NCBI GenBank assembly: GCA_944323335.1
Contig: CALUSB010000019.1
Coordinates: forward strand, 1 to 33,027
Direction: 5' to 3'
DNA from: Candidatus Gastranaerophilales bacterium
GTDB taxonomy: Bacteria > Cyanobacteriota > Vampirovibrionia > Gastranaerophilales > Gastranaerophilaceae
Length of the DNA: 33,027 nucleotides
The first letter of the stretch is position 1; every line of letters begins with the position of its first letter. A program made the translations under genes and the position numbers. Below, piece after piece: positions 6,240 to 20,624 of the stretch. The notes under the pieces are model-generated. The model was given only the letters and a program-made list of their open reading frames with translations, was not told where the DNA came from and did not search any database.

Positions 6240-8129
6240 ATGAACTACGCTGAAATGTCTGTTGCAATACCTTATCACGGGAGAGCTGATTTTTTTAAAG
6301 TGACTCTGGAAACTCTTTTAAATCAAACTTGTAAAAATTTTGAAATAGTCATAAGTGACGATTCAAACAATGAAAACGATTTAGCGGCTCTTGATGCTCT
6401 TGTTAAAGAGTATGCCTCATATGGTCTTAAAATCAGAGTTGTAAGGACAAAGCCAAATTTAGGTGCGATTTTAAATACAAAACAGGCAGTCGATGCTTGC
6501 AAAAACGACATAGTAAGAATTTTGCACACGGATGACTGTCTTGCACCAAAAACAATAGAGCTTGAGCTTGAAATTTTTAATAAATTTCCTGATACTTTCT
6601 TTGCTTTTCATAATTTAACCGTTTTTAGAGAAAAATTTATTCCTAATGAAAACAACAGATGGTCTGATAAAACTTGGGTTGATAATTGGCTCAAGGATAA
6701 AAACTATATAAATTCAATAATTCCCTCATGCCTTGTTATTAACAAAAAAGTTCTTGCCGAAGTTGGCTTTTTTAATACGGAATTTGAGTTTATGTACGAT
6801 TGGGAGTATCAGATAAGGCTTTTTGAATACGCTTATCTTAATAACAAAAGAGTTGTAGAAATCGAGGCGGGGTATGTGGGCTGGAGAATTTCAAAAATGT
6901 CTGAGTCATATACTAAAAGTATGCTCTGCTACAGGGATTCTCGAAACATAATTAAGCTTATGAAAAAAAGCTATGCTAAAATCGGCAAAAGATTAAATAT
7001 AAGCAAAAAAGGTATAAAAAGATTTAAGAGAATATTTGATAACAGAATTGAACAGGAGGCAAGCTGCAGTGGTGCAAATTCAAGGCTGCCTTTAAGGTTG
7101 TATCCGAGAAAAATATTTCACTTTCTAAGCGGCAGTATTAAATCTCTTTGTGATTTTATTAAAAAAACACAAGCCAAAAATGCCGCTAAGTCCGCTCTAA
7201 AGGCTCAAGCACCCCTGGTTTTTGATGATAATTATCTGTCTTATTCAAAATTTCCAATGTATGCAAAAGATGTAAAAATTGCCCCTAATTTTGATGATGT
7301 TGAAAAGACAGCTATTGTCATCTGCGGGCCGATTGTTAAAGAAAATAATTTCACATATGAAACCGCTCTTTTGTATAAAAAATTTTATAAAAATAAAAAT
7401 GTAGGCATTATTTTATCTACATATGCCGACACCGATGAAGCTTTGCTTAATGACTTTAGAGCTCTTGGCGTGGAAGTTGTTTTGTCGGATAAAATAAGGG
7501 CAAACGGGGTTGATGATATAAACCATAAAATAACTCTTGCAAAGTTTGGAATTGAAAAAGCGGATAACCTTAAATGCAAGTATGTCCTAAAAACTGCTGC
7601 CGACGAGAGATTTTACAATCCCGATACTGTTGCGTTTTTAATTAATTTACTGAAACAATACCCGAAAAATGCTAAATACGAGCTTAAAAACAGGATTATT
7701 GCCTGCTCAAAAGACAGTTTTGTCTATCGCGTCTATGGCATTTGTTCTAAGTTTTTGTTTGGCGAGCTTGCTGATATTAAAAAATACTGGAGCGTTGAAT
7801 TTGACAATTCAGACCCCGGTGAACTAAAAGCTATTTCAAAAAAAGAGCGTTTTATAAGACACTCGGGCGACAGTTATGTTTTAAGGAATTTTTTAAAAAA
7901 TATTAAACATAATCTAAAAGATGATATCGACGATTCGCTTGAGGTATATGCAAATTATTTTGTTATAATTGATAAAGAACAAATCAATCTTTATCGGTTA
8001 AAAAACTCAAATAAAACTTCTCAATATGATTTTTATTTTCCAAATTTGATGAAAGAATGTTTATTTTTGGATTGGTTTAATTTATACTCTAATAAGAATA
8101 AAGTGAAGTACTCCCTGTCGGATTTATAA
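6240..8129 (+). CDS. Bifunctional glycosyltransferase: GT2 domain fused to a WavE-like domain
   Basis: In this 629-aa cytoplasmic protein, residues about 5-230 form a family 2 glycosyltransferase: MSVAIPYHGR start, VISDDSNN, a TDD metal-binding motif in LHTDDCLAP, and a YDWEYQ acceptor-site region. A basic linker (230-340) leads to a C-terminal WavE-like domain (about 345-600) with TAIVICGPI, IILSTYAD, YVLKTAADERFYNP and the KYWS segment. WavE takes part in LPS core synthesis in Vibrio cholerae. The next gene encodes a free-standing WavE protein, so two WavE-type transfers probably act in series. The ribosome site GAGGAA precedes the ATG. No transmembrane segments are evident. Confidence 0.85.
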   Translation: MNYAEMSVAIPYHGRADFFKVTLETLLNQTCKNFEIVISDDSNNENDLAALDALVKEYASYGLKIRVVRTKPNLGAILNTKQAVDACKNDIVRILHTDDCLAPKTIELELEIFNKFPDTFFAFHNLTVFREKFIPNENNRWSDKTWVDNWLKDKNYINSIIPSCLVINKKVLAEVGFFNTEFEFMYDWEYQIRLFEYAYLNNKRVVEIEAGYVGWRISKMSESYTKSMLCYRDSRNIIKLMKKSYAKIGKRLNISKKGIKRFKRIFDNRIEQEASCSGANSRLPLRLYPRKIFHFLSGSIKSLCDFIKKTQAKNAAKSALKAQAPLVFDDNYLSYSKFPMYAKDVKIAPNFDDVEKTAIVICGPIVKENNFTYETALLYKKFYKNKNVGIILSTYADTDEALLNDFRALGVEVVLSDKIRANGVDDINHKITLAKFGIEKADNLKCKYVLKTAADERFYNPDTVAFLINLLKQYPKNAKYELKNRIIACSKDSFVYRVYGICSKFLFGELADIKKYWSVEFDNSDPGELKAISKKERFIRHSGDSYVLRNFLKNIKHNLKDDIDDSLEVYANYFVIIDKEQINLYRLKNSNKTSQYDFYFPNLMKECLFLDWFNLYSNKNKVKYSLSDL

Positions 8130-12162: not shown

Positions 12163-12441
12163 CTAGACATGCATTGTTTTCATAACAATTGCTGCAGGGT
12201 CTTTGTGAGACGGTACATTTGTATTTTTGCTTATTTTTGACACCGCGTTTTCAGGGTTTGATATCTTTTTTAAAATCGCTTTAAAGATATCAATAACAGT
12301 GCCCACAATTCCTCTTGTAGCTTTTGAGGGCTTATTCTCACTTACGTAATTTGCCGCAACAGGCAGAGTCTTTGCGGCTTTTGTTTTAACCGTATTGTAA
12401 GTTTGAGAAACTTTTGGTGTAATTGTTAATGCTTTAGTCAT
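12163..12441 (-). CDS. Small hypothetical protein, possibly lineage-specific
   Basis: The 92-aa protein has no signal peptide. It is rich in Lys, Thr, Ala and Val, with an amphipathic, hydrophobic middle (RGIVGTVIDIFKAILKKIS, about 43-61) that could contact membrane. The Thr/Lys-rich disordered N-terminus resembles that of other small proteins in gut Melainabacteria, but I cannot assign a function. The ATG follows AGGAT at 7 nt. A minus-strand TATAAT lies at 12498-12503, with a 7-5-7 palindrome at its -35 region, so expression is probably regulated. Confidence 0.55.
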   Translation of the reverse strand: MTKALTITPKVSQTYNTVKTKAAKTLPVAANYVSENKPSKATRGIVGTVIDIFKAILKKISNPENAVSKISKNTNVPSHKDPAAIVMKTMHV

Positions 12442-12547: not shown

Positions 12548-12576
12548 TTGACATTTGTTGAAAAAAATGATGTAAT
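12548..12576 (+). promoter_or_regulatory. Promoter of the arginine operon
   Basis: TTGACA (12548-12553), a 17-nt spacer and TGTAAT (12571-12576), a five-of-six match to the -10 consensus. Transcription should start near 12583, just before the leader peptide. I see no ArgR-type box around it. Confidence 0.8.
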
Positions 12577-12599
12577 AAATCAAAAGAAAAGGAAAACAA

Positions 12600-12662
12600 A
12601 TGATTTTAAACAAACAAGAAAGAACTTTGCGCCGCCGCTTAATAAGATTGGAGTCTTATTAA
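12600..12662 (+). CDS. Arginine-rich leader peptide of the arg operon attenuator
   Basis: This 20-codon frame reads MILNKQERTLRRRLIRLESY and stop. It contains five arginines, including three consecutive CGC codons (12630-12638). CGC appears uncommon in the surrounding genes, which mostly use AGA. AAGGA precedes the ATG at a suitable distance. The stop codon lies inside the 3' arm of a perfect 10-bp hairpin, and a terminator follows 35 nt later. The layout is that of classic amino-acid-operon leader peptides: a ribosome short of charged tRNA-Arg stalls at the CGC run and changes the folding of the leader RNA. Confidence 0.85.
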   Translation: MILNKQERTLRRRLIRLESY

Positions 12663-12736
12663 GTTTATTTGTTTGTTAAAAATTAGATAAATTTACTAAG
12701 CCTCCCTAAAGGAATGTCCCTGCGGGAGGCTTTTTT
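12638..12736 (+). promoter_or_regulatory. Arginine-operon transcription attenuator
   Basis: Three competing structures can be drawn. The first is a perfect hairpin, CTTAATAAGA (12638-12647) with TCTTATTAAG (12654-12663). The second is an antiterminator, GGAG-T-CTTA (12650-12658) with TAAG-C-CTCC (12697-12705), 8 of 9 paired. The third is the terminator, AAGCCTCCC (12698-12706) with GGGAGGCTT (12724-12732), followed by six T from 12731. A ribosome stalled on the CGC run would mask the 5' arm of the hairpin and favour the antiterminator. A ribosome reaching the leader stop would mask 12650-12658 and favour termination. Confidence 0.82.
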
Positions 12737-12754
12737 GTAGCAGAAAGGTAAAAA

Positions 12755-13795
12755 ATGATAAAAGCAGCAATAATAGGAGCAACGGGATACTCAGGAGCGG
12801 TATTGGCAGGAATATTGTCTTCTCATAGCGATGTTGAGATTGTTTCTCTTACAAGTAAATCATACACGGGTGAAAAATTTAGTGATATTTATAAAAACTT
12901 CAAAGGTATTTTAGATGTTGAGCTTGAGGAGCAGAATGTATTAAAAATTTCAAAAAAAGCTGATGTTATCTTTCTTGCCTTGCCCCATGGGATAGCATCC
13001 GGCGAAATAAATGAGGAAGTCCTATCAAATACAAAAGTAATAGACCTTGGAGCGGACTTTAGATTAAAAGAAAAAGACGTTTATGAAACTTGGTACAAAA
13101 CTCAACATCTGGGTGCAGACTTGCTAAATAAAGCGGTATACGGGCTTTGTGAGTGGGAAAGAGAAAAAATAAAAAATGCAAATCTTGTTGCAAACCCCGG
13201 CTGCTACGCTACTGCTTCAATTTTAACCGTTGCTCCGCTTTTAAAAGAGGGTGTTATTGATGCTAATGATATTATAATTGACGCTAAATCAGGTGTTTCA
13301 GGTGCAGGCAGAAGTTTGGATATAGGTGTTCATTACTGTGAGTGCTCTGAATCAATCAAAGCTTACAAGGTTGCATCTCACAGACATACGCCTGAAATTG
13401 AGCAGGAGTTGTCTTTTATTTCAAACAAAAATGCTCTTATTAACTTTACTCCTCACCTAATCCCGATGAAAAGAGGAATACTGGTAAGCGCTTACTTAAA
13501 ACCGCTTGTTGATATTTCATTAGACGAAATTAAAAACATTTATAAAAAATACTATCAAAATGAGCATTTTATAAGACTCCTGGATGGCCTGGAAGTTCCT
13601 GAAACCCGATGGACAAAAGGCTCTAACTTCTGCGATATTAATGTCTTTAAAGATGACAGAACAGGCAAAATAATAGCATTCGGCGCTATAGATAACCTTG
13701 TAAAAGGCGCATCGGGTCAAGCGGTGCAGAATATGAACATTATGTTTAACATAGATGAGAAAAAATCACTGGAAAATGTTGCAGTATTTCCTTAA
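12755..13795 (+). CDS. argC: N-acetyl-gamma-glutamyl-phosphate reductase
   Basis: The 346-aa enzyme catalyses the NADPH-dependent third step of arginine synthesis, making N-acetylglutamate semialdehyde. The dinucleotide-binding loop GATGYSGA is at residues 9-16. The catalytic Cys lies in NPGCYAT (about residue 149), and SHRHTPEI carries the active-site His. Length is normal for the family. It is the first structural gene behind the attenuator, 18 nt past the terminator T-run, with AAGG upstream of ATG 12755. argJ follows after 9 nt. Confidence 0.97.
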   Translation: MIKAAIIGATGYSGAVLAGILSSHSDVEIVSLTSKSYTGEKFSDIYKNFKGILDVELEEQNVLKISKKADVIFLALPHGIASGEINEEVLSNTKVIDLGADFRLKEKDVYETWYKTQHLGADLLNKAVYGLCEWEREKIKNANLVANPGCYATASILTVAPLLKEGVIDANDIIIDAKSGVSGAGRSLDIGVHYCECSESIKAYKVASHRHTPEIEQELSFISNKNALINFTPHLIPMKRGILVSAYLKPLVDISLDEIKNIYKKYYQNEHFIRLLDGLEVPETRWTKGSNFCDINVFKDDRTGKIIAFGAIDNLVKGASGQAVQNMNIMFNIDEKKSLENVAVFP

Positions 13796-13804
13796 GGAGA
13801 AGAA

Positions 13805-15049
13805 ATGACAGAAACAATGACAAAATTTAATAAAATAAACGGGGCAATAATTGCTCCGCAAGGTTTTGAAGCCGCAGGAATAAGAACGGGTGTAAAAAGA
13901 AGAAGAAAAGACCTTGCTATTATCTATACCAAAAAACCCGCCGTTGCAGCCGGTGTTTACACGACTAATGTTGTAAAAGCAGCCCCTTTGCTTGTGACAA
14001 AAGACATTGTAGAGAAAGCAACACCCATTAATGCGGTTATTATAAACAGCGGTAACGCTAACGCCTGCACGGGTGCTCAAGGTCTGACAAACGCTTGGGA
14101 AATGGTTGAAAAAACTCAAAAAGTTTTAAATCTTCCTGCAAGAAGTGTTCTTGTAGCTTCAACAGGCGTTATAGGCGTTCAGCTTCAGATGGATAAAATC
14201 CTTGACGGTATAGAAGAAATTGTTACTCAGCTCGGTACTTGTGAGCAGTCTGCGCTAAATGCTGCCGAGGGAATTATGACAACAGATACTTTTGTAAAAG
14301 GCGTGGCTTATGAGTTTGAAATAAGCGGTAAAACCGTTAAAATCGGCGCAATTGCAAAGGGTTCAGGCATGATTCATCCAAACATGGGCACAATGCTTGG
14401 TTTTGTTACAACAGATGCGGTTATATCAAAAGAACTTTTGCAAAAAGCGCTCAGCGAAAGCACTAAAAACACCTATAATATGATATCTGTTGACGGTGAC
14501 ACTTCAACAAATGACATGGTTGTGGTTCTGGCTAACGGATGTGCGCAAAATAAACCTATTGAGTCTGAGGATTCATCAGACTATAAAACTTTTGCACAAG
14601 CCCTTGATATGGTTAACAAGCACCTTGCAAAACAGATTGTACTTGACGGTGAGGGTGCTACGAAATTTCTTGAAGTAAATATCAAAGGCGCTAAAGATGA
14701 AAAATCTGCTAAAATCCTTGCAAAATCAGTTATTACTTCAAATCTTGTAAAAACTGCATTTTTCGGCGAAGATGCAAACTGGGGCAGAATACTTGCAGCT
14801 CTTGGCTATAGCGGTGTTGAGTTTAATCCTGAGGGAGTTTCTATAGAATTTTTTGCTCAGGATAAAACCTTGTTGCTTATGAAAGACGGCACACCTCTTG
14901 AGTTTGATGAAGATGAAGCCCATGAGCTTTTAAAAAACAAAGAAATAACCATAAATGTTTACATGTCTGACGGCGAGAGCACAGCAAGTGCTTGGGGTTG
15001 TGATTTAAGTTACGAATACGTCAGAATTAACGGCGAGTATAGAACATAG
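13805..15049 (+). CDS. argJ: Ornithine acetyltransferase / N-acetylglutamate synthase
   Basis: The 414-aa enzyme transfers the acetyl group from N-acetylornithine to glutamate, so the acetylated pathway recycles and a separate argE is not needed. ArgJ is made as one chain that cuts itself before a catalytic Thr. The site here is KGSGMIHPNMGTMLGF, with T196 as nucleophile and Gly, not the usual Ala, just before it. Whether it is mono- or bifunctional cannot be read from sequence, but no argA is in the operon. AAGGAGAAG precedes the ATG. Confidence 0.97.
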   Translation: MTETMTKFNKINGAIIAPQGFEAAGIRTGVKRRRKDLAIIYTKKPAVAAGVYTTNVVKAAPLLVTKDIVEKATPINAVIINSGNANACTGAQGLTNAWEMVEKTQKVLNLPARSVLVASTGVIGVQLQMDKILDGIEEIVTQLGTCEQSALNAAEGIMTTDTFVKGVAYEFEISGKTVKIGAIAKGSGMIHPNMGTMLGFVTTDAVISKELLQKALSESTKNTYNMISVDGDTSTNDMVVVLANGCAQNKPIESEDSSDYKTFAQALDMVNKHLAKQIVLDGEGATKFLEVNIKGAKDEKSAKILAKSVITSNLVKTAFFGEDANWGRILAALGYSGVEFNPEGVSIEFFAQDKTLLLMKDGTPLEFDEDEAHELLKNKEITINVYMSDGESTASAWGCDLSYEYVRINGEYRT

Positions 15050-15059
15050 AGAGGGAATA

Positions 15060-15920
15060 ATGAAAGAGTTTGTACAAAAAGTAAGAATTTTAACCGAGTC
15101 GCTTCCTTATATTAAGGAATTTGCAAATAAAACGGTCGTTATAAAATACGGCGGTGAGGCGCTTAAAGACGAAGTTGTTTCAAAAACCATAATAGAAGAC
15201 ATTGCCCTTATGAAATATATTGGAATAAAACCCGTAATAGTTCACGGCGGCGGTGTTGAGATAACTGAGCTTTTAAATAAAATGAATGTAAAAACCGAGT
15301 TTGTAGGCGGTTTAAGAAAAACAGACAAACAAACCTCGCAAGCTGTCGAGATGGTTCTGGGTGCAAAAATAAATAAAAAAATCGTGCACGACATTCAAAC
15401 CCATGGCGTTGAGGCAGTCGGTATTTGCGGTTGTGATGCTAATTTATTTGAAGTGCAAAAGATTTTTCCAAACGGCGAGGACTTAGGTTTTATCGGCGAA
15501 GTTAAAAAAGTAAACGAAAAACTTTTAAATATCTTAATTGATAACTCATATATCCCTGTCATTGCACCTGTTTCAAGGGATGTTGAGGGCAATATTTATA
15601 ACATAAACGCTGATTACGCCGCTTTAGCTGTTGCCTGTGCTCTTAAGGCTCAAAAGCTTGTATTTTTAACGGATATTGAGGGTGTTATGCGTGACAGATT
15701 TGACCCGACATCTGTTATATCAACTCTAAAAATAGGCGAGATTGATAAATACATCGCAGATAAAGTAATTGAGGGCGGTATGATACCTAAAGTCCAAAGC
15801 TGCAAATACGCTATTGAAAACGGCGTTAACACTGTTCATATATTAGACGGCAGACTGGAACATTCTCTTTTACTTGAAATATTCACTCATCATGGAATAG
15901 GAACAATGGTGGAAAAATAA
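15060..15920 (+). CDS. argB: Acetylglutamate kinase
   Basis: The 286-aa amino-acid-kinase-family enzyme phosphorylates N-acetylglutamate. Motifs are VIKYGGEAL near residue 28, HGGG in VIVHGGGVEI, and NINADYAA near the substrate site. The N-terminal extension (about 1-24, ahead of the first strand) forms the helix found in hexameric, arginine-inhibited kinases, so feedback inhibition is likely. The same type binds PII in cyanobacteria. Its stop overlaps the start of argD (TAATG). Confidence 0.97.
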   Translation: MKEFVQKVRILTESLPYIKEFANKTVVIKYGGEALKDEVVSKTIIEDIALMKYIGIKPVIVHGGGVEITELLNKMNVKTEFVGGLRKTDKQTSQAVEMVLGAKINKKIVHDIQTHGVEAVGICGCDANLFEVQKIFPNGEDLGFIGEVKKVNEKLLNILIDNSYIPVIAPVSRDVEGNIYNINADYAALAVACALKAQKLVFLTDIEGVMRDRFDPTSVISTLKIGEIDKYIADKVIEGGMIPKVQSCKYAIENGVNTVHILDGRLEHSLLLEIFTHHGIGTMVEK

Positions 15921-17095
15921 TGAAAAATAACTGTTTAATGAATACATATTCAAGATTTGACGTGGTTTTTGACCATGGTGAAAATTGCTATTTGTACGAT
16001 ACAAATAACAAAAAATATATTGACTTTGTCGGCGGTATAGCGGTTAATTCACTTGGTTACAGTTCTGATAAGCTAAAAAAAGCTATCGCAAATCAAGCCG
16101 ATAAAATGCTTCATTGTTCAAATCTTTACTATAATGAGCCTCAAATTGAGCTTGCGCAAAAACTCTGTGACAACAGCTGCTTTGATAAAGCTTTCTTTTG
16201 TAACAGTGGTGCTGAAGCAAACGAGGCGGCGCTTAAACTTGCAAAAATTTACGCCAAGAAAAATAAAAGCAAAGACTGCTTTGAAATAATTGCTTTTAAA
16301 AATTCCTTTCACGGCAGAACAACAGGCGCTCTGAGCCTAACGGGGCAAGATAAATATCAAAAAAACTTCACCCCGCTTATGGATGGGGTAAAATTTGCAA
16401 CCTATAATGATATAGATTCTCTTAAAAATCTTGTAAGCAAAAACACTTGCGCTATTGTGCTTGAGCCGATTCAGGGCGAGGGTGGTATAATCCCTGCCGA
16501 TATTGAATTTTTAAAAGAAGTAAGAAATATATGCGATAAAAATGATATAGCTCTTATTTTTGATGAAGTTCAATGCGGCATAGGCAGATGCGGTAAGCTT
16601 TTTACTCATCAGGTGTATGGAGTTAACCCTGATATTATTGTTCTTGCTAAAGCATTAGCCGGCGGTGTACCCATAGGCGCTATGCTTGCGGTGGAAAAAT
16701 TTGCCCTTGCTTTTGAGCCGGGCGACCATGCCAGTACTTTTGGCGGAAATCCCCTTGCTTGTGCTGCTGCAAATGTTGTAATTGATGAGATATTAAACTC
16801 TGATATTCTTGAAAATGTTAAAAATATGAGTGCTTATTTTGTTGAAAAAATGAACGCACTAAAGAATAAATACAATTTTATTAAAGATGTCAGAGGCCTT
16901 GGCTTAATGCTTGGTATGGAAGTTGGTATTTTACCTAAAGATATTGTGTCTTTGGCTTATAAAGAGGGGCTTTTGCTATTATCTGCAGGAGCTAATGTCG
17001 TGCGATTTGTGCCCCCGCTTGTGATTGATAAAGTCACGACAGATGAGGGCTTTAAGATTTTGGATAAGGTTTTAGAAAATATAAAAGGAGAATAA
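15920..17095 (+). CDS. argD: Acetylornithine aminotransferase
   Basis: The 391-aa class III PLP aminotransferase converts N-acetylglutamate semialdehyde to N-acetylornithine. Visible motifs are [30 protein letters not shown], the cofactor-contacting [11 protein letters not shown], and the PLP lysine in [13 protein letters not shown]. Length is typical. Translation is coupled to argB through the one-base overlap, and argG starts 1 nt after its stop. Confidence 0.97.
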
Positions 17096-17096
17096 T

Positions 17097-18308
17097 ATGA
17101 AAGAAAAAGTTATCTTAGCATACTCGGGCGGTCTTGATACTACGGTTTTAATTCCCTGGTTAAAAGAAACATATGACTACGACATTATCGCAGTTTGTAT
17201 TGATGTAGGACAAGGCAAAGAAACGGACGGACTTGAGCAAAAAGCTCTAAAAACAGGCGCTTCAAAGTTTTATTTGCTTGATGTAACGGAAGAATTTTTA
17301 ACTCAATACGCTTGGCCTACCCTAAAAGCAGGTGCGGTGTATGAGAGCAAATATTTGCTCGGTACATCAATAGCAAGACCAATAATCGGAAAATGTCTTG
17401 TAGATATTGCAAAAAAAGAGGGCGCGGTTGCAATTTGTCACGGTGCAACTGGCAAGGGAAATGACCAAGTCAGATTTGAACTTGCTATAAAAGCTCTTGC
17501 TCCCGAGCTTAAAATTATTGCTCCTTGGAGAATATGGGATATTCAATCAAGAGAAGATGAAATCAAATACCTTGAAGACAGAGGCATTGAAGTACCCATG
17601 AAAAAAGATGACTCTTACTCAAGGGATAAAAACCTCTGGCACTTAAGCCATGAGGGTTTAGAGCTTGAAGACCCCGCACTTGAGCCTAATTTTGACAAAC
17701 TTCTTCAAATGTCTGTTACACCTGAGAAAGCTCCTGATAAAGACACATATGTTGAAATAGAATTTGAAAAAGGTGTTCCTGTGGCAATTGACGGTAAAAA
17801 AATGAGTGCAAAAGATTTGCTTGCAGAGGCAAATAAGCTTGCAGGCGAAAACGGTATCGGTATAGCAGACATTGTAGAGAACAGACTTGTCGGTATGAAA
17901 TCAAGAGGAGTTTATGAAACCCCCGGCGGTACGCTTTTATACCAAGCACATGAATACCTTGAGCACTTGTGTCTGGATAGGGATACTTATCAATACAAAC
18001 TAAATGTTGCAAACGAGTTTGCAAAACTTGTATACAACGGTCTTTGGTTTTCTCCCCTGCGCAAGGCGCTGAGTGCTTTTGTTGATGAAACTCAAAAAAC
18101 AGTTACGGGCAAAGTAAAACTAAAACTTTATAAAGGCAATATAATCTATGCCGGCGCAACTTCTGAGTATTCTCTTTATTGTGAATCTCTTGCAAGCTTT
18201 ACAACAGGGGATTTATACAACCATAAAGACGCAGAAGGCTTCATCAACCTGTTTGGCTTACCCCTAAAAGTCGGTGCTATGCTTCTTGGAGATAAAATAA
18301 ATGGCTAA
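17097..18308 (+). CDS. argG: Argininosuccinate synthase
   Basis: The 403-aa ATP-dependent ligase joins citrulline and aspartate. The PP-loop AYSGGLDT (8-15) and [13 protein letters not shown] are diagnostic. AAAGGAGAA precedes the ATG. The last 8 nt overlap argH, as is common in coupled argGH pairs. Confidence 0.98.
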
Positions 18309-19695
18309 TGATAAACTCTGGGGCGGCAGATTTTGTGTTCAAACAGATAATCTTACGGATGATTTTAATTCATCCGTAAGGTTTGATAAAAGGCTTTATA
18401 AGCAAGATATCAAAGGTTCTGTTGCCCATGTAAAAATGCTTGCAAAGCAAGGTATTATATCAAATGATGATGCGCTAAAAATTAAAGACGGATTAGAAAA
18501 AATCCTGCTTGAAATTGAATCCGGTGAGTTTGAATTTGATGTAGCACTTGAAGATGTTCATATGAATATTGAAAAGCGCTTAATCGAGCTTATTGGTGAA
18601 GCCGGAAAAAGACTTCACAGTGCAAGGAGCAGAAATGACCAAGTTGCCCTTGATACTAAAATGTACACAAAAGAGGAAATACTAAACATAAAAAATCTTC
18701 TGCTTGAGCTTTTGGAGGCGATTTTAGCCAAGGCAAAAGAAAATATCAATACTATTATGCCCGGCTTTACTCATATGCAAAAGGCTCAACCTGTTACTTT
18801 TGCTCATCATCTTTGTGCTTATTTTGAAATGTTTAAAAGAGATATTTCGCGTCTTGATGATGCCCACAAGAGAATGAACACCTCTCCTTTGGGCGCGTGC
18901 GCTTTAGCAGGTACTACGTATAATATCGACAGATATTATACATCAGAGCTTTTGGGTTTTGATTCACCTATGCTAAATTCAATTGATGCTGTGTCGGATA
19001 GAGATTTTGCAATTGAAACAATAAGCTGCATTTCTTTTGTTATGTTGCATTTAAGCCGCTTTTGCGAAGAGATTATTATGTGGTGCTCAAAAGAATATGA
19101 CTTTATCGAGCTTGATGACGCGTATTCAACGGGCTCAAGCATTATGCCTCAGAAGAAAAACCCCGACATTGCTGAGCTTGTAAGGGGTAAATGCGGCAGG
19201 GTGTATGGGGATTTGATGTCAATTTTAACCGTTATGAAATCTCTTCCGCTTGCCTATAACAAGGATATGCAGGAAGATAAAGAACCCCTGTTTGACTCGA
19301 TTGACACTGTTAAAATGTGCCTTAATATTTTTACAAAGATGTTCTCAACTTCCAAAGTTAACAAGGATAATATGTACAAATCCGCAAAAACAGGCTTTTT
19401 AAACGCTACAGATGTTGCAGATTACCTTGTTAAAAAAGGTCTTGCCTTCAGAGATACTCATAAAATCGCAGGTGAGCTTGTATATTACTGTATTGAAAAC
19501 TCAAAGTGCCTTGAAGAGCTTAGCTTAGATGAGTTTAAAAAATTCTGCGAGCTTTTTGATGAGGATATTTATGAGGCAATTTCTCTTAAGACCTGTGTAG
19601 AAAAGAGAACTTCAACAGGTGCACCCTCGCCTTGTGCTATGAGTGAAGTGATTAAAACATATGAAAAATATATTTTAGAGCAGAAAAAGGAGTAA
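18301..19695 (+). CDS. argH: Argininosuccinate lyase
   Basis: The 464-aa fumarase/aspartase-superfamily enzyme splits argininosuccinate to arginine and fumarate. It shows LWGGRF at the N-terminus, [19 protein letters not shown]-like [13 protein letters not shown], and the family signature [13 protein letters not shown] carrying the catalytic Ser. Length is typical. argF starts after 2 nt. Confidence 0.98.
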
Positions 19696-19697
19696 AA

Positions 19698-20624
19698 ATG
19701 AACTTAAAAGGAAGAGATTTTATATCGTTGATGGACTTTAGTACTCAAGAACTTGGTTATCTTCTTGATTTGGCATCAGAAATTAAAGCAAAGACAAAAA
19801 GCGGAGTTTTAGAGCCTCTTTTAAAAGACAAAAATCTTGTTTTAATATTTTCTAAACCCTCTCTAAGAACAAGAGTCAGCTTCGAAACAGGCATAAGACA
19901 GCTTGGCGGAAACTCTCTTACCCTTAAGCAGGATGAAATAAATCTTGGTGTCAGAGAAACAATAGCAGACACTGCAAGGGTTTTATCAAGATACGCAGAT
20001 TGCGTTATGATAAGAACTTTTGCCCACAGTGACGTTGAAGAGTTTGCAAAATATGCAAGTGTCCCTACGATTAACGGTCTTACTGATGATTCTCACCCGT
20101 GCCAGATTATGGCTGATTTGTTGACTATTAAAGAGCATTTTAAAAAACTTAAAGGGCTAAAGCTTGTGTACTCGGGTGATGGCAACAATGTTGCAAACAG
20201 TCTTTTGGTTGGTTGTGCTCTTATGGGTTTAGATGTAACCATAGCTTGCCCTAAGGGGTATGAGCCAATGGAAAAATATGTTGAGTTTGCAAAAAATGCG
20301 GCACTAAAAACAGGTTCAAAAGTATCAATTGAACATGACCCTAAAAAAGCCGTAGAAGGTGCAAATATTATCTATACGGATGTTTGGGCAAGTATGGGGC
20401 AAGAAAGTGAAGCAAGCATAAGAAAAGAGATTTTTAAATCTTATCAGGTAAATGATGAGTTGTGCTCTTGCGCTAGCGATGATGTTATTGTGCTTCACTG
20501 CTTACCTGCACACAGAGAGGAAGAAATCACTCACAGTGTGCTTGAGAAAAACGCAGAAGTTATTTTTGAGCAGGCAGAAAACAGAATGCATGCTCAAAAA
20601 GCAATTATGGCGGCTATTGTTTAA
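19698..20624 (+). CDS. argF: Ornithine carbamoyltransferase
   Basis: The 308-aa enzyme makes citrulline from ornithine and carbamoyl phosphate. The carbamoyl-phosphate loop reads FSKPSLRTRVSFETG (S55-R59; the usual STRTR has Leu at the second position). HSDVEE-type contacts, DDSHPCQIMAD and HCLPAHR (catalytic Cys) are present. It is the last gene of the arginine operon, and the 5' arm of the operon terminator overlaps its last codons. Confidence 0.97.
   Translation: MNLKGRDFISLMDFSTQELGYLLDLASEIKAKTKSGVLEPLLKDKNLVLIFSKPSLRTRVSFETGIRQLGGNSLTLKQDEINLGVRETIADTARVLSRYADCVMIRTFAHSDVEEFAKYASVPTINGLTDDSHPCQIMADLLTIKEHFKKLKGLKLVYSGDGNNVANSLLVGCALMGLDVTIACPKGYEPMEKYVEFAKNAALKTGSKVSIEHDPKKAVEGANIIYTDVWASMGQESEASIRKEIFKSYQVNDELCSCASDDVIVLHCLPAHREEEITHSVLEKNAEVIFEQAENRMHAQKAIMAAIV

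Follow-up and report, generated by a model that had tools for sequence, protein, structure and literature searches.

Bacterial arginine synthesis is the textbook example of control by the repressor ArgR, and attenuation through leader peptides has been described for other amino acids; the question raised by the locus described here is whether an arginine operon may be governed by attenuation. The window, a stretch of 33,027 nucleotides from a Candidatus Gastranaerophilales bacterium with a genome of 1.67 Mb, contains the gene row argCJBDGHF (12755 to 20624, + strand), in which argC (12755-13795; TIGR01850) opens the operon and argJ, argB, argD, argG, argH and argF follow (13805-20624), all on one strand and with gaps of at most 10 nt. 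A divergent ORF of 92 aa (12163-12441, - strand), with zero matches to NCBIfam, starts approximately 100 nt from the arg promoter. Directly 5' of argC, with which the cognate biosynthetic operon opens, a first-pass annotation had placed a promoter, a 20-codon frame, a hairpin and a terminator, and had read them as a ribosome-mediated attenuator. All of these elements are present where it had located them. Based on the sequence, on comparison with relatives and on folding models, we consider it very probable that the leader acts as a classical ribosome-mediated transcription attenuator sensing the supply of charged arginyl-tRNA.

The leader, whose features all lie on the + strand, begins with a sigma-70-like promoter (12548-12576), in which TTGACA (12548-12553) and TGTAAT (12571-12576) are separated by a spacer of 17 nt; the TTGACA is kept in all 11 genomes of the genus set, which comprises the genomes, the window's included, in which the region upstream of argC is readable on the contig. 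A Shine-Dalgarno sequence, AAGGA (12589-12593; AGGA or AAGG in genus-mates), precedes the leader frame MILNKQERTLRRRLIRLESY* (12600-12662), which has 20 codons in 11/11 genus-mates and here contains five Arg codons (AGA, three CGC and AGA). As had been claimed, the three consecutive CGC codons that form the putative sensor (12630-12638) lie in an AGA-rich region: the 24 ORFs of the window use AGA 152 times, AGG 45, CGC 21, CGT 15, CGA 7 and CGG 3, so that AGA and AGG make up 197 of 243 Arg codons (81%) and CGC-CGC-CGC is unusual. Among the short ORFs of the window that contain RRR, this frame is the sole one with a Shine-Dalgarno sequence. The 1:2 hairpin is, as described, a perfect 10-bp stem (12638-12647 with 12654-12663), and the UAA stop codon of the leader (12660-12662) sits inside its second arm. 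The antiterminator pairing proposed between 12650-12658 and 12697-12705 is present with 8 of 9 pairs (mismatch U12654-C12701), but the helix is really longer: the 2:3 pairing joins 12650-12667 to 12688-12705 through 16 of 18 pairs, and forms in the predicted fold with a stalled ribosome. The 3:4 intrinsic terminator (12698-12736) is built from the arms AAGCCTCCC (12698-12706) and GGGAGGCTT (12724-12732) and a T-run to 12736, and ends 18 nt before argC; it was not flagged by a consensus scan because its loop is 17 nt. The leader combines a short frame, which has a start, a ribosome site and neighbouring codons for the amino acid that the operon produces, with an intrinsic terminator, and the antiterminator and the 1:2 stem exclude each other.

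We propose that control of the operon would proceed as follows. Transcription would start near 12583, and a ribosome would then enter the 20-codon leader. When arginine is low, the ribosome would stall on CGC-CGC-CGC and cover arm 1 of the hairpin, so that arm 2 could base-pair with arm 3, tying up the terminator's 5' arm, and the polymerase would continue into argCJBDGHF. When arginine is ample, the ribosome would reach the UAA in arm 2 and mask this arm, allowing the terminator to form, and termination would release a leader transcript of approximately 150 nt. If the leader were not translated, the 1:2 hairpin would form and the terminator would again be left free. The CGC codons would be decoded by tRNA-Arg(ACG), ACG being among the Arg tRNA anticodons recovered from the window's genome (ACG, CCG, TCT and CCT, one gene each).

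Folding of the switch was modelled for two ribosome positions, on the Arg run and on the stop codon, assuming that the ribosome covers 12 nt past its A-site codon and with the RNA extending to the end of the terminator 5' arm; the readout was the extent to which this arm is paired upstream. For the window's leader, the predicted sequestration of the arm was 0.87 with a stalled ribosome, 0.05 with a ribosome at the stop codon and 0.08 without a ribosome. Over 15 leaders, sequestration averaged 0.755 in the stalled state versus 0.284 at the stop codon, a mean difference of 0.470 compared with 0.083 in 200 shuffle sets (sd 0.065, maximum 0.244); for nine leaders of family f8, which belongs to the same class but lies outside the order, the difference was 0.458 versus 0.154 in shuffles (sd 0.083, maximum 0.393). 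Predicted folds in which stalling frees arm 2 and a ribosome at the stop codon masks it therefore surpass shuffles for the set and not for each leader singly: taken one by one, only about one in three of the 15 leaders gives a clear result, and in L111 the stalled and stop folds show no difference. At equilibrium, full-length leaders of the genus are predicted to form the terminator at any ribosome position (0.90-0.96). Read-through must therefore be kinetic, with the switch acting during transcription, which is when switching occurs in the trp and his attenuators.

Homologous upstream regions without the Arg codons or the alternative pairings, which the first-pass annotation had named as evidence against attenuation, did not appear in the genus: both are kept in 11/11 genus-mates, as are the promoter, the frame, the stems and the terminator, and the middle sensor codon alternates between CGC and CGA. 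The annotation had also called for an argC-upstream comparison in search of a conserved Arg-rich frame and covarying stems. The frame proved to be conserved, but the stems do not covary within the genus; they are sequence-conserved, and informative covariation is lacking there because the sequence hardly changes, the changes falling between genera. A search for the core DNA pattern of the leader in 192 genomes of the order recovered genus members only, because the sequence is unshared outside the genus.

Beyond the genus, the architecture recurs with unrelated sequence, which together with the conserved Arg codons and alternative pairings supports ribosome-mediated attenuation. Within Gastranaerophilales, a leader precedes the arg gene that opens the operon (argC or argF) in 24 genomes from four families; leader sequences differ across these families, and close-set Arg codons (CGN in 49 of 51 cases, a bias whose p-value is only indicative because the species are related), the hairpin and the terminator persist. 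In the other genera of the window's family and in family f7, argF opens the operon and is preceded by the leader, as exemplified by the TTG-initiated frames (M)NNKIIFTTELRRRNLF (L111) and (M)KTITFTIQARRSIPYIECGIVL (L135), and in families f2 and f4 the leader precedes argC (L015, L113, L011). The distance from terminator to gene is 20-37 nt, with the exception of L113 (193 nt). The weakest frame is that of L128 (RQSR, ribosome site unclear); the terminators, weak in L134 and L136, are kept in leader-bearing relatives. In family f8, 13 of 24 genomes have, upstream of argC, RRR or RRRR leaders with strong, GC-rich terminators (L145, L146, L160-L163, L165-L168, L171, L172 and L174), the leaders being of the RRRR[DE]FLENSG-like and QVISRRRPGL types, with one ARSRRRAVKRL. 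None of 20 upstream regions from genomes of other classes in the phylum contained an Arg-run leader with a ribosome site and a terminator.

The signal could in principle be read from the peptide: free arginine or ornithine might bind the RRRLIRxESY chain in the ribosome and cause arrest, without a shortage of charged tRNA. SpeFL, TnaC and the fungal arginine attenuator peptide are ligand-dependent arrest peptides of this type. Such a role would fit the near-invariance of the last ten leader residues in the 11 genus-mates (RRRLIR[LQC]ESY, the first ten being variable), the length of exactly 20 codons in every leader of the genus and the fact that f8 genera, too, retain locally conserved stretches (QVISRRRPGL and RRRR[DE]FLENSG, for example). 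However, the invariant residues coincide with or adjoin the RNA stems, which alone could explain their conservation, and these residues are not common to other families, between which only close-set Arg codons are shared; moreover, arrest by abundant arginine would here switch the operon on in arginine plenty. We consider peptide sensing improbable.

Direct binding of arginine or of a regulator by the leader RNA, with the short frame being incidental, would account for a leader structure that is strong and conserved (its folding beats 200 of 200 shuffles, z -3.77), and arginine is plausible as an RNA ligand. Nevertheless, the Arg-codon frame survives where the stem sequence changes, and the leader has zero matches in Rfam, which makes an RNA switch or a protein-binding leader very unlikely. 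The association of such frames with arginine genes is also specific: in a control scan of 63 upstream regions in Gastranaerophilales loci, with a match defined as a frame with a ribosome site, RR and a terminator, all 12 matches lay before argC or argF, and RR occurred 12 times as compared with at most 3 for any other doubled residue. Although terminators commonly precede genes, it is scarcely credible that the structure simply serves to terminate an upstream transcript, alongside a chance short frame and with argC unregulated, given the conservation of the frame, the presence of a separate conserved promoter that lies between the leader and the divergent ORF, the retention of the Arg-run frame and terminator in 24 and 13 genomes, and the absence of any such frame elsewhere in the 63 regions.

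A further question is how attenuation relates to ArgR. ArgR (PF01316) was found in none of 58 relatives, with a positive control of 9 of 14. In family f8, ArgR is present in 8 of 24 genomes, all of them without a leader before argC, and is absent from the 13 leader genomes; by simple arithmetic this exclusion has a chance probability of 0.0002 by genome, and by genus it amounts to four with the leader versus four with ArgR (three have neither), and therefore to few independent events. In the f8 locus L176, ArgR heads the arg row itself, the gene names being assigned by reading the sequence. The chances appear about even that the leader attenuator is ancient and shared throughout the class of non-photosynthetic Cyanobacteriota, where it stands in for ArgR, one or the other serving each genome, and that rare CGN sensors were kept in AT-rich members while general usage shifted to AGA; the groups behind the class-wide reading are at least Gastranaerophilales and the f8 family. 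Theory holds that attenuators favour the codon whose tRNA first loses its charge (PMC1183508), and in Salmonella speF rare and frequent Arg codons are both functional (PMC6386406). A conserved arginine attenuator that is exclusive with ArgR in one family would represent a clean case of one regulator replacing another.

With regard to known systems, the argC leader shares with the proteobacterial attenuators adjacent cognate codons in the leader, mutually exclusive stems and an intrinsic terminator before the first gene, and it differs from them in its amino acid (arginine), its occurrence in non-photosynthetic Cyanobacteriota, the stop codon within arm 2 and its unrelated sequence. Those leader-peptide attenuators (trp, his, leu, ilv, thr and pheA) are well established. 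The kind of device is classical; what is new, as far as checked, is the amino acid, the operon and the phylum. The argC T-box of Firmicutes controls a terminator before the same gene through a sensor of tRNA charging, but binds uncharged tRNA directly and has no leader peptide; no match to the T-box family RF00230 was found in the window or in 21 relatives' genomes. Published precedents for leaders with Arg codons are Salmonella speF and Staphylococcus aureus rbf, both of which have other outputs. In Salmonella orf34-speF, a short upstream frame senses the arginine supply through a pair of adjacent Arg codons, and changing Arg to Lys abolishes the response (PMC6386406); unlike the argC leader, it has no intrinsic terminator before a biosynthetic operon, and its output, ornithine decarboxylase, is controlled via Rho-dependent termination, occlusion of the ribosome site and RNase G (PMC6386406). 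In S. aureus rbfL, ribosomes pause at the Arg codons of a short upstream frame under arginine shortage, but the codons are AGA/AGG and translation of a biofilm regulator is controlled (PMC13009471). As far as the account cited in PMC4997734 goes, a leader peptide also precedes Pseudomonas aeruginosa carAB, which serves both arginine and pyrimidine synthesis; any attenuation there is ascribed to pyrimidines, and arginine acts at the transcriptional level. For cyanobacteria, one survey states that reliable data on attenuation are lacking (PMC4833913); for actinobacteria, another found no RNA control of arginine operons (PMC1262725). In the freely accessible papers searched, we found no published leader attenuator of an arginine-biosynthesis operon or in the phylum; subscription literature, such as the 2010 attenuator survey cited in PMC4833913, may contain an earlier prediction.

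Several observations concern the wider distribution of these genes. In the window's genome, carA lies 3' of pyr genes and outside the control of the arg leader, and no trpE was found. A match to argC occurs in only 39 of 383 genomes of Gastranaerophilales, and the arginine pathway seems to be missing from most genera of family f1. No leader was found upstream of argC in nine genomes of family f3 or in G037, where ArgR is missing as well (L014, L016, L017, L019, L021, L022, L024-L026 and L012). Among argC upstream regions of other phyla, matches in Gallionellaceae were rejected, as the peptide looks like the C-terminal end of rpsU. A further match, in a firmicute (L040, a MAG labelled Thomasclavelia), was also rejected because, judged by eye, it looks like a T-box; the T-box-like sequence (approximately 7830-8000) lies directly upstream of argC, and the ArgC encoded there is 53% identical to that of the window.
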